Below are positions 35,154 to 42,672 of a stretch of 54,835 bases of DNA, one piece after another. The translations under genes were made by a program, and so were the position numbers. The notes below the pieces were generated by a model. That model saw nothing but the letters and a program-made list of their open reading frames with translations. It had not been told where the DNA came from and ran no database searches. The stretch's first letter is position 1. Every line of letters starts with the position of its first letter. This stretch comes from Gammaproteobacteria bacterium (GTDB taxonomy: Bacteria > Pseudomonadota > Gammaproteobacteria > Steroidobacterales > GCA-2729495). Location of the stretch: the NCBI GenBank assembly GCA_016874095.1, contig VGVH01000014.1, forward strand, positions 1 to 54,835, written 5' to 3'.

Positions 35154-36452
35154 TCAGAGGTTGTAACCGCGCTCCTCGTGCAGCGCGATGTCGAGGCCCT
35201 CGGTCTCTTCCTCGGGTGTCACCCGCAGCGGTGTGAGCGCGCCGACCACCTTCAGGATTGCCCAGGTCAGCGCGGCCGACCAGATCAGGGTCGCGATGAC
35301 GCCGACGACCTGTACACCGACCTGCTCGGCGATGCCACGTCCGTCCGGATGCCCGACGCCGCCGAGTACCGCGGCACCGAACACACCGGTGAGGATCGTG
35401 CCCAGGGCCCCGCCGACTCCGTGCACCGGGAACACGTCGAGCGAATCATCGATCTGCAGTCGGCGCTTCACGATCTGGGTCGCCCAGAAGCAGACGGTGC
35501 CGGCCAGCAAGCCGATCACCAGCGCACCGGACGGCCCGACGAATCCGGAGGCCGGCGTGATCGTGCCCAGCCCGGCGACCATGCCGGTCACCAAGCCGAG
35601 CACGCTGGGCTTGCCGAACTTGAGCCACTCCTGCGCCATCCATGCGATACAGCCCGCGGCCGCTGCAGTATGCGTGGCGAGCATCGCCATGCCGGCGGCG
35701 CCGTTGGCTGCCACGGCACTGCCCGCGTTGAAGCCGAACCACCCGACCCAGAGCATGCCGGCGCCGGCAACCGTCGTCGGCAGGTTGTGCGGCGGCATCG
35801 GCTGCTGCGGAAAACCGCGGCGGTTGCCCAGCACCAGGGCCGCGACCAGTGCCGCGACCCCCGCGTTGATGTGGACTACGGAACCACCCGCGAAGTCGAG
35901 GAACTTCATCCCGGCGAGCCAGCCGCCGCCCCAGACCCAGTGCGCCACCGGGACATAGACCAGCAACAGCCACAGCAGCGAGAACAGCAGCATCGCGCCG
36001 AAACGCATGCGTTCGGCGAACGCGCCGACGACCAGCGCGGGCGTGATGATCGCGAAGGTCATCTGGAACATGAGGAACACGGTCTCGGGCACGTTGGGAT
36101 AGGCCGCGTACACGGCGTCCGCCGTCATGCCCTTCAGGAACGCCTGCTCCAGGCCGCCGATGAAGGCCTGCGCGCCACCGCCGTCACCGAAGGCCAGGCT
36201 GTAGGCGCCGGCAACCCAGAGCACCGACACGGCCGCAGCGATCGCGAAGCACTGCATGAGGACCGAAAGGACGTTGCGGCTTCGCACCAGGCCCGCATAG
36301 AAGAGCGCGAGGCCCGGCAGGGTCATGAACAGGACCAGGGCCGTGGAGGTAAGCACCCAGGCGGTATCGCCGCGATCGATTTCGGCAAAGGCAGCCGAGG
36401 GCAGTAATGCCGCTATCAGCAGGGATATGGCTCGCGCCGGTCGTTGCAGCAT
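35154..36452 (-). CDS. amtB: Ammonium transporter AmtB
   Basis: This is a 432-residue inner-membrane channel for ammonium. A signal-like first segment (SLLIAALLPSAAFA) is followed by eleven helices. The twin-His pore residues are visible in GGSVVHINAGVAALVAA and VFPVHGVGGALGTILTG, and FQMTFAIITPALVVGAFAER is conserved. GGGGAGG lies about nine bases before ATG 36452. It is 23 bases downstream of glnK, the standard operon. GlnK binding would block the pore when nitrogen is plentiful. Confidence 0.96.
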   Translation of the reverse strand: MLQRPARAISLLIAALLPSAAFAEIDRGDTAWVLTSTALVLFMTLPGLALFYAGLVRSRNVLSVLMQCFAIAAAVSVLWVAGAYSLAFGDGGGAQAFIGGLEQAFLKGMTADAVYAAYPNVPETVFLMFQMTFAIITPALVVGAFAERMRFGAMLLFSLLWLLLVYVPVAHWVWGGGWLAGMKFLDFAGGSVVHINAGVAALVAALVLGNRRGFPQQPMPPHNLPTTVAGAGMLWVGWFGFNAGSAVAANGAAGMAMLATHTAAAAGCIAWMAQEWLKFGKPSVLGLVTGMVAGLGTITPASGFVGPSGALVIGLLAGTVCFWATQIVKRRLQIDDSLDVFPVHGVGGALGTILTGVFGAAVLGGVGHPDGRGIAEQVGVQVVGVIATLIWSAALTWAILKVVGALTPLRVTPEEETEGLDIALHEERGYNL

Positions 36453-36475
36453 GCTGGATGGCCTCCCCTTCGAGA

Positions 36476-36856
<381 letters not shown>

Positions 36857-39425: not shown

Positions 39426-41258
39426 CTACCGGCCGCGGCGTTTCGGTTTCTCGATGCCGAAGGAGCGCATGCGATCCGCCAGCGTCGTCGGCCGTATGCC
39501 CAGCAGTTCCGCTGCACCGCCCTTGCCGGACACACGCCAGCCTGTCGCTTCCAGGGCGGCAACGAGGTTGCGGCGTTGTGCGTCACGCATCGCTGCTTCG
39601 GTCACGACGACGGGCGTCACTGCGACCGGGTCTGCCGCCCGAGCCGGAGCCTGCAGGCCGTCCGCCGGTACGCCTGCCTCCGTCAGTGACAGATCGAGAC
39701 GCAGGGCCCCGCCGCGCGAGAGGATTACCGCGCGCTCGATGACGTTTTTCAGTTCGCGCACGTTGCCCGGCCAGTCGTAGCGCTTAAGCGCCTCGACCTG
39801 GGCTTCGCTGAACTGCAGCGGGGCCCGGCCGAACTGGCGGCAGACCTGGTCGAGGAAATGGCCGGCAAGCTGGATCACGTCGTTGCCCCGCTTGCGCAGC
39901 GGCGGCACCTGCACCGGGAAGACGCTAAGCCGGTAGTAGAGATCCTCGCGAAACTCACCGGCCTCCACCGCCTTCTCCAGGTCCTTGTTGGTCGCCGCGA
40001 TGACACGGACATCGACCTTGCGTGTCTTGTCGTCGCCGACGCGCTCGAACTCCTGTTCCTGGAGTACGCGCAGCAGTTTTCCCTGCAGGGCGAGCGGAAT
40101 TTCCCCCACTTCGTCGAGGAATATCGTCCCGCCATCCGCCAGCTCGAAGCGCCCCACCCGGTCGCGATGTGCGCCCGTGAACGCGCCGCGGACGTGGCCG
40201 AAGAACTCGCTTTCGAAAAGTTCCTGGGGAATCGCCGCGCAGTTGACCTTCACCAGCGGCCCGTCGGCCCGGCGGCTGCGGCCGTGGATGGCATGGGCAA
40301 CCAGTTCCTTGCCCGAACCCGTCTCGCCGATGATCAGCACGCTCGCCGGAGTCCCCGCCACGGCATCGATGCGCGCGAGCATCGCAGCCAGCGCCGGACT
40401 CTCGCCGACGATGCGGCCGTAGTTCATCGACAGGTTCACTTCCTCGCGCAGGTAGTCGCGCTCGCGCTCGAGTTCCTCCTTCAGCCGGGCGATTTCGCCA
40501 TAGGCTTCCCGCAACCGCGCTTCGGAGCGGTTGCGCTCGGTGACGTCCTTGCTGGCGACGAGCAGGCGAACCACCTCGCCCTGCGCGTCGCGCTCGGCGC
40601 GCGCAGACAACAACACGTCGATGACGTCGCCGGAGCGGGTCAGCATCTGGCGCGGGACGTTCTGCATACCGCCGAGGCTGATCAGCTCCTGCAGGCGCCC
40701 GCCCATGAGCGGCCGGCGTGATTCGTCGGTGACGAAATCGAGGATCGAGCGGCCGATGACCTCCTTGCGCTGGTAGCCGAGTTTTTCCAGCCAGTGGTTG
40801 CTGACGGCGATGATCCGGCCGTCCTTGTCGACGGTATGGAGCATCGTGGGCGTGGATTCGTAGAGGTCGATGTAACGGCGCTCGTAGCGCTCCCGATCGC
40901 TGGGCTCGCGGAACAGCGACACCGAGTAGAGGAAATTGGTCGTGCCGGGCTCGAACACGGGCACCGTGGTAGCCAGCAGATCAAGCGCCGCACCGTCGTG
41001 TGTCACGAAAGTGACCGCTACCCGATCGAGCCGTCCCGTGCGCCGCAGCTGTGGCACGTACTCCTGGCGGATCCGCTCGGCGCTCGCGGGGGTGGCGAGA
41101 TCCTCGGGCCGCTTGCCGCGCAGGTCGTCGCGGCTGTAGCCGGTCCGCCGATGCCACTCGTCGCTGATGTCGACGAACCGGCCTTCGCGGTCCATGACGG
41201 AGACCAGCAGCGGCAAGCTGTGCAGCAGGCCCACGCTGTCGGGTGTCGGTGTCGCCAT
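39426..41258 (-). CDS. PAS-PAS sigma-54-dependent activator
   Basis: This is a 610-residue bacterial enhancer-binding protein. Two PAS sensor domains (about 10-120 and 130-245) and a coiled-coil linker ([18 protein letters not shown]) precede the AAA+ domain. That domain has Walker A GETGSGKE (near 315), the sigma-54 contact loop GAFTGA (near 360) and Walker [11 protein letters not shown]-terminal Fis-type HTH ([18 protein letters not shown]) ends the protein. No receiver domain is present, so PAS domains must sense the signal directly or bind partners. It is divergent from a near-consensus sigma-54 promoter at 41370, its likely target, with TTTTTCGT-type repeats between them. Confidence 0.95.
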
Positions 41259-41273
41259 AACCGAAGAGTCTAC

Positions 41274-41331
41274 GATTTTTCGTGTTCTTTGACTCCGGTT
41301 TTTCGTAAATCACGGAATTCCGTAAAACCGG
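41274..41331. promoter_or_regulatory. Repeat/dyad cluster upstream of the sigma-54 promoter (probable UAS)
   Basis: TTTTTCGT occurs at 41276-41283 and 41299-41306. CCGGTTTTTCG (41295-41305) is inverted as CGTAAAACCGG (41321-41331) with one mismatch. Between them is a perfect 12-bp palindrome, ACGGAATTCCGT (41312-41323). The cluster lies about 40-95 bp upstream of the -24 element and next to the activator gene start. I infer enhancer sites for the 39426 activator. Confidence 0.6.
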
Positions 41332-41369
41332 TCATTCATTAACTGTTTGATTTTATATCAATTTTTGAC

Positions 41370-41385
41370 TGGCACGAATCCTGCT
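41370..41385 (+). promoter_or_regulatory. Sigma-54 (-24/-12) promoter
   Basis: TGGCACG (41370-41376), four bases, then CTGCT (41381-41385) matches the RpoN consensus with GG and GC separated by exactly 10 bases. Only the first base of the -12 element deviates. An AT-rich stretch (41341-41368) lies immediately upstream and could bind IHF. Transcription would start near 41396 and run toward the small frame at 41445. Confidence 0.8.
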
Positions 41386-41444
41386 ATACCTCAGCATGCC
41401 GGACCAATCGACTGCCCCGGCATGCGCGAAAGAAGGATGAGGAC

Positions 41445-41609
41445 ATGGTTATCGTGAAGGGAGCATTCAACGCACCCCGGGAACGCCTGCCGGCACTCGC
41501 TCTGGCAATGCTGGTCACGGTGCTGGTGTTTGCTGCCATCAATGCGGGGTTTACGCCCCACGCTGCAGACGTCAGCGGCCGGACCCAGCTGGAGGCCATC
41601 GAGGCCTGA
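41445..41609 (+). CDS. 54-residue single-span membrane peptide under sigma-54 control
   Basis: This is a short frame with a strong ribosome site (GAAGGATGAGGAC) directly before ATG 41445. The peptide has a basic N-terminus (VIVKGAFNAPRERL), one hydrophobic helix (about 17-33, LALAMLVTVLVFAAINA) and a polar, acidic tail ending QLEAIEA. I recognise no family. The only upstream promoter is the sigma-54 element, and the divergent gene is a sigma-54 activator, so it is probably the regulated product. A structured region and a T-run follow. Short length is the main reason for caution. Confidence 0.6.
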   Translation: MVIVKGAFNAPRERLPALALAMLVTVLVFAAINAGFTPHAADVSGRTQLEAIEA

Positions 41610-41671
41610 GAAAACCGACTTCGTGGGTCTGGTGCGGGCTGCATCCTCCCCCGCCCGCCAGCCCACGGATT

Positions 41672-41720
41672 CCGGCCGGAGACGGCCGGTCGCGCCGGCG
41701 GACATCCCCCCTGCCGGCGC
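41672..41720 (+). other. Two strong hairpins downstream of the small peptide gene
   Basis: CCGGCC (41672-41677) pairs with GGCCGG (41684-41689) across six bases. GCGCCGGC (41692-41699) pairs with GCCGGCGC (41713-41720) across 13 bases. Together with the following terminator they make a continuous series of stems in the 3' part of the sigma-54 transcript. This could be a 3'-UTR structure or a small RNA; no known RNA family is recognised. Confidence 0.5.
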
Positions 41721-41722
41721 CT

Positions 41723-41798
41723 GAGGGCTCGCATGGCGTCTCCTGTCGGGGACGCGAGTCGCCCAAAAGATTCAGCCGTGCGAGCCCTCGTTTTTTTT
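41723..41798 (+). terminator. Long-stem intrinsic terminator ending in T8
   Basis: A 15-bp stem, 41723-41737 with 41775-41789 (one G-U pair), has a 37-base loop that itself can fold. Eight T residues follow at 41791-41798. On the + strand this would terminate the small-peptide transcript. The descending arm and T-run lie inside the last codons of the convergent PGPGW gene. Confidence 0.65.
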
Positions 41799-42062
41799 CC
41801 CGTTGCCGGTCGTGACCTGACGGGTCCGGTTGATGAGCGCCGCCAGCTGCTCCTTGCTCATCTTTTCCTTGATGCGGTGGAGCCAGTACCGCGCCCAGGC
41901 GAACTCGATCGCGAGTATCGCCAGTCCACCGGCGATCATCAGGAGACCCGGCCCGGGCGTAAAAATCATCAGGACGCCGAGCAGCGCCGCCGTGCCACCG
42001 ATTACGGCGATGGTGATGCGACGCGCGATGCGATAACCGCGTTTGCCGAGTTCGGCTAACAG
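41772..42062 (-). CDS. PGPGW-family membrane protein (start uncertain)
   Basis: This is a small inner-membrane protein of about 96 residues with two hydrophobic helices around FTPGPGLLMIAGG, followed by LAILAIEFAWARYWLHRIKE and a polar tail. This is the PGPGW transmembrane family of unknown function. No ATG, GTG or TTG lies at a sensible place; a CTG at 42062 has GGGG upstream, and the frame stays open to an ATG at 42242 that overlaps the neighbouring gene. Its final codons are shared with the terminator of the small-peptide gene. Confidence 0.6.
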   Translation of the reverse strand: MLAELGKRGYRIARRITIAVIGGTAALLGVLMIFTPGPGLLMIAGGLAILAIEFAWARYWLHRIKEKMSKEQLAALINRTRQVTTGNGKKNEGSHG

Positions 42063-42143
42063 TTTGAAACCCCGTGGAGCGGACTGGCGACAGCGGCCCC
42101 TGCCGCGGATGGTAACACCTGCGGTCGATCGGGCTGCCGCTGC

Positions 42144-42149
42144 TAGAAT
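42144..42149 (+). promoter_or_regulatory. -10-like TAGAAT ahead of the 42160 gene
   Basis: TAGAAT ends ten bases before GTG 42160 and overlaps an alternative ATG at 42148. This favours the GTG as the start and a leaderless or very short-leader transcript. Confidence 0.4.
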
Positions 42150-42159
42150 GCCCGCCGCC

Positions 42160-42672
42160 GTGCGCAACCGACTGTATGCAATTGCCGCACTTGCCGGCTT
42201 CGTCGCCGCCACGCTGGCCGTGCCAGGAACTGCGGCCGGCACGACCGCTGTCGAGGGCTACGCCGAAGTGTCGGTGCGCCAGGCCGACGAGGCTGGCTCG
42301 CGCCTGACGGATCGCGTGCCCTTTCGCCTCGATATCGCGCTGCGCTGCCCTGCCGGCACCACCACCACCGAGCTGTTCGCTTCCATCGCCGACTCGGCGA
42401 GAGCGGAAGCACTGGCGTCGGGAACCTCAGGCGTCAGCTGGCTGATCGAGGTACCGCGTGCGCAGCTCGCCTGGCTCGATCCCTTGACGCGCACCTGCGC
42501 AGCCGCAGCGGCGCAACGCCAGCCGGACGAGCGGGATGCTGGCGGCGCGAACTGGTACCGCATGCGCTCCGGCACGCAGGCCTACGTCACGCTGACCTGC
42601 GCGGGCGATTCGGGAACGGCGGCGAGGCATGCCGACAGCACACCCCTGACGCTCTGGTTCAGTTGCCCTTGA
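42160..42672 (+). CDS. Secreted protein of unknown function
   Basis: This 170-residue protein has a clear signal peptide (RLYAIAALAGFVAATLAVPG, cleaved near TAAG). The mature part has four cysteines (ALRCPAG, RTCAAA, LTCAGD and the C-terminal FSCP), possibly forming two disulfides. I recognise no family. GTG 42160 is preferred over ATG 42148 because of the -10-like element and the normal signal-peptide N-region. The last 14 bases overlap the end of the convergent hydrolase gene. Confidence 0.6.
   Translation: MRNRLYAIAALAGFVAATLAVPGTAAGTTAVEGYAEVSVRQADEAGSRLTDRVPFRLDIALRCPAGTTTTELFASIADSARAEALASGTSGVSWLIEVPRAQLAWLDPLTRTCAAAAAQRQPDERDAGGANWYRMRSGTQAYVTLTCAGDSGTAARHADSTPLTLWFSCP

Follow-up and report, generated by a model that had tools for sequence, protein, structure and literature searches.

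The stretch of DNA analysed here (‘the window’: all 54,835 nucleotides of contig VGVH01000014.1, assembly GCA_016874095.1, from a gammaproteobacterium of the order Steroidobacterales) contains a compact regulatory unit headed by the gene of a 610-amino-acid transcriptional activator (39426-41258, minus strand) with the domain order PAS-PAS-AAA+-HTH. Pfam matches to PF00158 (E = 1e-72), to HTH_8 (PF02954; E = 2e-6; a Fis-type HTH) and, in two stretches, to PAS_9, together with a GAFTGA loop that can be read in the translation, identify the protein as a sigma-54 enhancer-binding protein; a receiver domain is absent among its reported domain matches. When it was compared with named enhancer-binding proteins (NorR, NifA, NtrC, PrpR, PEP_resp_reg and others) at their NCBIfam equivalog cut-offs, none was exceeded among the matches listed (25 of 31), NorR scoring 389 against a cut-off of 476. 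A sequence search of the PDB gave a single PAS match, 3bwl (E = 2e-6), a match that gives no indication of the signal. Frames resembling GlnK and an ammonium transporter can be recognised by inspection some 3 kb past the activator gene (35154-36854, minus strand).

Divergent from this gene lies a -24/-12 promoter element, TGGCACGAATCCTGC (41370-41384, plus strand; GG at 41371-72, N10, GC at 41383-84). A preliminary description of this DNA had reported a PAS-PAS activator facing away from such a promoter with exact GG-N10-GC spacing, and dyads at a suitable distance upstream, and both statements hold. The dyads, of the type ACG-N6-CGT, form a fixed array of three without strand assignment: ACGATTTTTCGT (exact; 41272-41283), CCGGTTTTTCGT (one outer mismatch; 41295-41306) and ACGGAATTCCGT (exact; 41312-41323), at about -98 to -99, -75 to -76 and -58 to -59 across the loci read. 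Between the array and the promoter, inspection of the sequence predicts an IHF-like site, AATCAAACAGTTA (41340-41352, minus strand), which fits WATCAANNNNTTR, a pattern that we take to be the IHF consensus. The leader is predicted to fold into a 5' hairpin (41394-41425, plus strand) at the putative transcript start (about 41396). Leaders fold at -9.6 to -19.3 kcal/mol in 10/10 members of the genus (raw energies, without a shuffle baseline), and the stem differs among members. The three-dyad array, the IHF consensus, the 5' hairpin and the C-rich loops described below were all absent from the preliminary description.

All 10 upstream regions in the genus carry the promoter at fixed spacing along with the dyad array, and rpoN was found in 10/10 genomes. 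Judged from these features, the element is a sigma-54-type promoter: a -24/-12 element, upstream activator-like sites and rpoN are all present, and we infer that transcription from it would depend on RpoN. A search for sigma-70-type promoters between 41100 and 42300 found none on either strand, a result that says little because only 0.2 would be expected by chance.

The predicted transcript begins with a frame for a 54-amino-acid peptide (41445-41609, plus strand) that has GAGGA just before its ATG and one hydrophobic stretch (by inspection), as the preliminary description had it when it proposed a 54-residue peptide with a strong ribosome site. The RNA 3' of the stop codon is highly structured, with a folding energy of -115.5 kcal/mol (z = -8.0 against 200 shuffles). 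Three stable stems followed by T8 had been described; the stable stems and the T8 are there, and folding and covariation together count four stems, all on the plus strand: stem I (41620-41669), whose loop, CUGCAUCCUCC, borders a C run; a short stem II (41672-41689); stem III (41692-41720), with the loop ACAUCCCCC(C); and stem IV, a branched terminator hairpin (41723-41789) followed by T8 (41791-41798). The C-rich loops thus sit in stems I and III. A simple terminator scan did not list the branched terminator (41723-41798). A convergent frame for a PGPGW membrane protein (41772-42242, minus strand) has its end within the terminator hairpin, which may therefore terminate transcription from both sides.

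The activator is a single-copy gene, with one ortholog each in 37 of 40 genomes of the family; the three genomes in which it was not matched are 70-78% complete. It was found in 101 of 196 sampled genomes of the order, in families f1, f2, f3, f5, f6 and f7, and a class-wide sample matched it (at E = 1e-40) in 3 of 369 genomes, all three from the same order. All 37 loci of the family were read, together with 40 of the 64 activator-bearing genomes of the order outside it. The strict pattern TGGCA-N7-TGC is present at 76/76 activator loci that reach the promoter (37/37 in the family and 39/40 in five other families, the fortieth locus stopping at a contig edge before the promoter), as compared with a background of 0.035 per kb elsewhere in the fetched loci. 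Three dyads occur at the set positions in 68/76 loci, an arrangement seen in 0 of 15,200 mononucleotide shuffles, and at least two dyads occur in 73/76. The 8 loci lacking the full array at these positions include both loci of family f5, where the array is shifted some 10 bp upstream and was counted as missing. In 60/76 loci the interval from the dyads to the promoter holds an IHF-like site with no more than one mismatch, against 6.8 expected from shuffles.

Within its own genome the activator looks dedicated to its own promoter, because the genome of 2.8 Mb has the strict dyad pattern ACGRWWWWYCGT at no more than 5 places, 2 of them in this promoter, and the three other sites have no strict TGGCA-N7-TGC within 900 bp, although other spacings are possible. 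At L178 a strict promoter match lies 0.93 kb from the dyad, and at L179 a looser GG-N10-GC match lies about 0.2 kb from the dyad there, in both cases upstream of the dyad on the strand of the match and, by inspection, in coding sequence. A genome search for further promoters of the activator, using a two-dyad pattern with one mismatch allowed, proved non-discriminating, since it returned fewer matches (116) than its reversed control (249).

The conservation of the RNA was followed with covariance models, which were built stepwise because MAFFT, applied to the complete RNA, placed stem I and two genus members (G008 and G009) wrongly. A first model (R1), built from four members of the genus, matches the RNA of the window (56.6 bits), the eight other members having sequence, and four genomes of other genera; in 4/4 of the latter the matched RNA lies downstream of the same type of promoter, with dyads and a divergent PAS-type activator. 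Among nine sequences (a set that omits G008 and G009 and the distant matches L059 and L060), 31 of 43 pairs have changed on both sides and 93.2% of cells pair. The covariation score of 0.468 compares with 0.158 after shuffling (0/500) and at most 0.117 when the structure is slid, although these figures are favoured by an alignment that was fitted to the structure. At E = 0.05 a second model (R2) has matches in 22 of the 40 family genomes, in 17 of them at the activator locus; four are matched only away from that locus, at a chance-like level, and one (G060) is not assignable. Seven places in six family genomes, with a best E of 6.9e-4, were off-locus matches of R2 and were excluded from the count.

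The feature of the RNA that travels furthest is a hairpin with a C-rich loop. A looser criterion for such hairpins accepted 146 of 253 C runs in control sequence; with a folding energy of -15 kcal/mol or better required in its place, they are found in 31/37 family loci (at least two in 21/37), in 8 of 9 genera of the family (g2 being the exception), and in 34/38 loci outside it (at least two in 10/38), two of the 40 non-family loci being too short for the test. The corresponding rates are 5.1 per kb in the family (60 in 11.8 kb) and 3.7 per kb elsewhere (46 in 12.3 kb), against 0.48 per kb (43 in 88.9 kb) in both strands of the activator coding sequence, a control that, as coding DNA, may under-represent hairpins. 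Six family loci have no strong C-loop hairpin, including both from g2 and one (G001) only because its sequence is short, and the same is true of 4/38 loci outside the family. By the energy criterion there are up to three such loops per transcript, typically AUCCUCCCCC, CAUCCCCCUCC or CUCUCCCCC, which resemble anti-Shine-Dalgarno sequences.

Further regularities appear within particular lineages. In 9 of 21 loci of family f7 (L140, L142-L144, L147 and L149-L152) the first C-loop hairpin is followed by a conserved second domain (alignment A12), made up of two hairpins, GGGCC and GCGGCA-CCCCC-UGCCGU, and a branched terminator in which most of the loci have GCCGGAGACCGUUCCGU; 5 of its 31 pairs have changed on both sides across the nine loci. 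In genus g8 the RNA (L088, L090, L091, L095, L099, L100 and L110) starts in 7/7 cases with a conserved and probably single-stranded CAUCAAG, followed after one or two bases by GCUUU in 6/7, possibly a second seed.

Taken together, these observations are best explained, in our view and with reasonable though far from complete confidence, by an activator-switched riboregulator that would pair its C-rich loops with G-rich ribosome sites, and to which the peptide is accessory. The folded C-loop RNA is probably the most constant product of the unit, and probably a gene silencer. The preliminary description had taken the peptide to be the only plausible product, with a 3' RNA, possibly regulatory, as an aside. 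It is the aside that has gained, since the RNA recurs as the core of the unit, its regulatory role being our reading of that structure.

The strongest rival is the peptide itself: as a small membrane protein it would modulate a partner in the membrane, and the 3' stems would do no more than stabilise or terminate its mRNA. Within the genus the case for it is good. The frame is present in 10/10 genomes (truncated by the contig end in G001), and six named contigs of the set come from metagenome bins of uncultured bacteria, carrying the labels Gammaproteobacteria, Pseudomonadota or Nevskiales. Many synonymous sites have changed among nine genomes, with a pooled pN/pS of 0.48 and pN below pS in 36/36 pairs. 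These substitution patterns make it very probable that in the genus the peptide is translated and under selection, and such purifying selection implies that it does something there. Beyond the genus, comparison of sequences gives a different result. Although 16 of 50 genomes have a peptide match at E of 1 or less, the best (E = 0.064) falls in a long frame, and the peptide is, by this measure, recognisable in its genus only; Pfam matched no family in it, DUF1127 included. An expectation of the preliminary description, that the frame be conserved in relatives, was thus borne out among the ten genus genomes and went no further, and where it had set peptide against stems, the RNA reaches beyond the genus (through R1, into four other genera) and the peptide does not.

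Nearly all loci read outside g8 have some small frame before the hairpins, and many of these frames begin with a hydrophobic or signal-peptide-like stretch, which speaks for a peptide as effector. When the longest ATG frame near the transcript start is taken, frames of other genera are mostly 85-135 amino acids long, as at 31/38 loci outside the family, the other 7/38 having only 24-51. Those larger frames that were read by eye start like a signal peptide and frequently end in RG, and short hydrophobic peptides resembling that of the window are few (G018, 37 amino acids; G091, 34; G110, 37). Five exported frames of relatives were compared with Pfam: two had no match, three had sub-cut-off matches to unrelated families, and none matched DUF1127. 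Among eleven exported frames (alignment A11), several mature parts start with a sequence like IVVTAxRP, reminiscent of the start of the plug of TonB-dependent receptors, and most end in RG. That the 54-residue peptide might be a shortened form of such an exported protein of about 100 amino acids is attractive by eye, and is not claimed here because hhalign gave a probability of 2.3% against the eleven-frame profile. The lack of demonstrable homology to these frames, which come from other genera and families, counts against the peptide as effector.

Also against that view is genus g8, in which 0/7 loci read have a plausible frame and the promoter leads straight to the RNA, promoter and C-loop hairpins occurring together in 7/7 loci. 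Four of the seven have no ATG frame of at least 35 amino acids near the start, and in the other three the only frames begin within the region of the hairpins (the search used ATG starts, alternative start codons being covered in G035). Moreover, an element that did no more than stabilise the mRNA would have no need of loops that stay C-rich while the stems around them change. The peptide is accordingly rejected as the core product, because it is not recognisable outside its genus and g8 lacks a plausible frame, and we consider its role as the unit's effector unlikely. What the preliminary description called a dedicated activator for one membrane peptide survives as a compact unit with an activator that looks dedicated, and loses the peptide as main product: outside the genus there are other frames or none, and the promoter, the enhancers and, at most loci, the C-loop hairpins stay.

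A second rival keeps the RNA as the product and makes it a decoy, whose C-rich loops would titrate either a protein that binds RNA or a regulatory RNA rich in G, without pairing to mRNAs. CrcZ and RsmY/Z titrate proteins in this way, and CrcZ provides a precedent for a titrating RNA under sigma-54 control; loops repeated up to three times in a transcript would suit such a function. Against this, the loops match anti-Shine-Dalgarno sequences, the sub-threshold Rfam matches on the RNA (given below) are to anti-Shine-Dalgarno RNAs, and we know of no C-rich-binding partner in these organisms. We rate a decoy as improbable, a shade more so than the peptide as effector. A type I toxin-antitoxin pair, with a hydrophobic toxin peptide and an RNA antidote, is suggested by a small hydrophobic peptide adjoining a structured RNA and is very improbable, in that RNA and frame share a strand behind one promoter, the hairpins of g8 occur without a frame, and an addiction module would not be expected to answer to a conserved activator.

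On the favoured reading, in which the C-rich loops act on mRNAs, the unit would work as follows. The cytoplasmic PAS-PAS activator would sense a signal and bind the three tandem dyads, IHF would bend the intervening DNA, and the activator would open its single sigma-54 promoter. The resulting transcript would carry a small and changeable frame for a membrane or exported peptide, followed by hairpins exposing anti-Shine-Dalgarno-like C-rich loops; the 3' RNA is probably freed by processing, and in g8 is apparently transcribed without a frame. It would then act in trans, its loops pairing with G-rich ribosome-binding sites and lowering translation of the target mRNAs, much as shown for sX13 and proposed for the ‘cuckoo’ RNAs, while the peptide would be an accessory, changeable passenger. 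A search for putative targets, using GGGGAGGATG in the RNA's own genome, was uninformative: it gave 6 matches against 2 for the control, none at a convincing gene start, and one of the six is the antisense of the RNA itself.

A broader proposal, which we put forward tentatively and would not yet back at even odds, is that these loci represent a class of sigma-54-gated riboregulators spanning six families of one order, with one dedicated activator and one RNA per genome. The anti-Shine-Dalgarno-like loops might affect a broad range of G-rich ribosome sites, or might imitate the tail of 16S rRNA, and the peptide frame in front might have been replaced, shortened or lost between genera, leaving the noncoding 3' part as the ancestral, selected product of an mRNA-like transcript. 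A sigma-54 circuit of one activator and one promoter, kept across six gammaproteobacterial families, offers a clean unit for study, and an mRNA-like locus whose 3' RNA recurs while its frame changes makes it possible to ask how dual-function RNAs acquire a peptide or shed it. If confirmed, the proposal would extend C-rich-loop silencing to lineages for which we found no dedicated small-RNA or sigma-54 literature. Searches that lay mostly outside subscription journals found no paper combining sigma-54, a small RNA and a C-rich loop, and looser terms gave none that by title concerned this unit among the matches listed; for Woeseia, which the order appears to include, none was found with sigma-54, and Woeseiaceae with small RNAs only in passing.

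Several known RNAs nevertheless resemble parts of the unit. Neither in the window nor in 16 loci that were scanned did any Rfam family reach its gathering cut-off. At the lenient limits also applied to the 16 loci, ar14 (RF02344; cut-off 58.8 bits) matched the RNA with 37.7 bits at L128, where the match also spans the end of the frame, and with 29.1 bits at L059; anti-hemB, which we take to belong to the C-rich anti-Shine-Dalgarno RNAs, matched with 20.6 of 49.5 bits, and a third match, Bip IRES, lay outside the RNA. The proposed control of the unit recalls Qrr, GlmY/GlmZ, CrcZ and NrsZ, sigma-54-driven sRNAs that are switched on by response-regulator enhancer-binding proteins, as there too an enhancer-binding protein turns on a regulatory RNA; to our knowledge, none of the sigma-54-driven sRNAs has a C-loop architecture with a small frame in front. 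The proposed release of an RNA from an mRNA also has a counterpart at glnA, which is under sigma-54 control. GlnZ is an Hfq-dependent sRNA with a conserved seed, released from the 3' UTR of the glnA mRNA that nitrogen limitation induces (PMC9731577); its host gene encodes an enzyme, whereas the loci here combine C-rich loops with a changeable small frame.

The RNA itself is closest to three systems to which it is likened, and in none of which it is placed, because a defining feature of each is missing here. The highly structured sX13 RNA of Xanthomonas carries C-rich sequence in three apical loops and was shown to repress, independently of Hfq, mRNAs that have G-rich motifs close to the start codon (PMC3771888). 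It shares with the present RNA a strong structure with C-rich loops, but is noncoding and located at polA (PMC3771888), whereas the RNA described here is flanked by the activator and the PGPGW protein, has a sigma-54 promoter and, in most genera, follows a small frame. The ar14/NfeR1 or ‘cuckoo’ RNAs of alphaproteobacteria have several anti-Shine-Dalgarno C-loop hairpins on variable stems, with C-rich-loop silencing of G-rich sites near start codons being proposed, and an RpoD-type promoter (PMC10746234). Several C-rich-loop hairpins with variable stems are present here as well, including in the window, but the promoter is of the sigma-54 type, the best score (37.7 against 58.8 bits) is below the gathering cut-off, and the nonamer CCUCCUCCC, found in each hairpin loop there, occurs within 720 nt downstream of the promoter in 1/76 loci. 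The CIN1 locus (PMC10253847) encodes the small protein CcaF1 and then the sRNAs CcsR1-4 on one transcript; it has a DUF1127 RNA-binding protein and an RpoH promoter, where the unit described here has an enhancer-binding protein and no DUF1127 match, but the order seen here, a small frame and then a C-loop RNA, resembles that arrangement.
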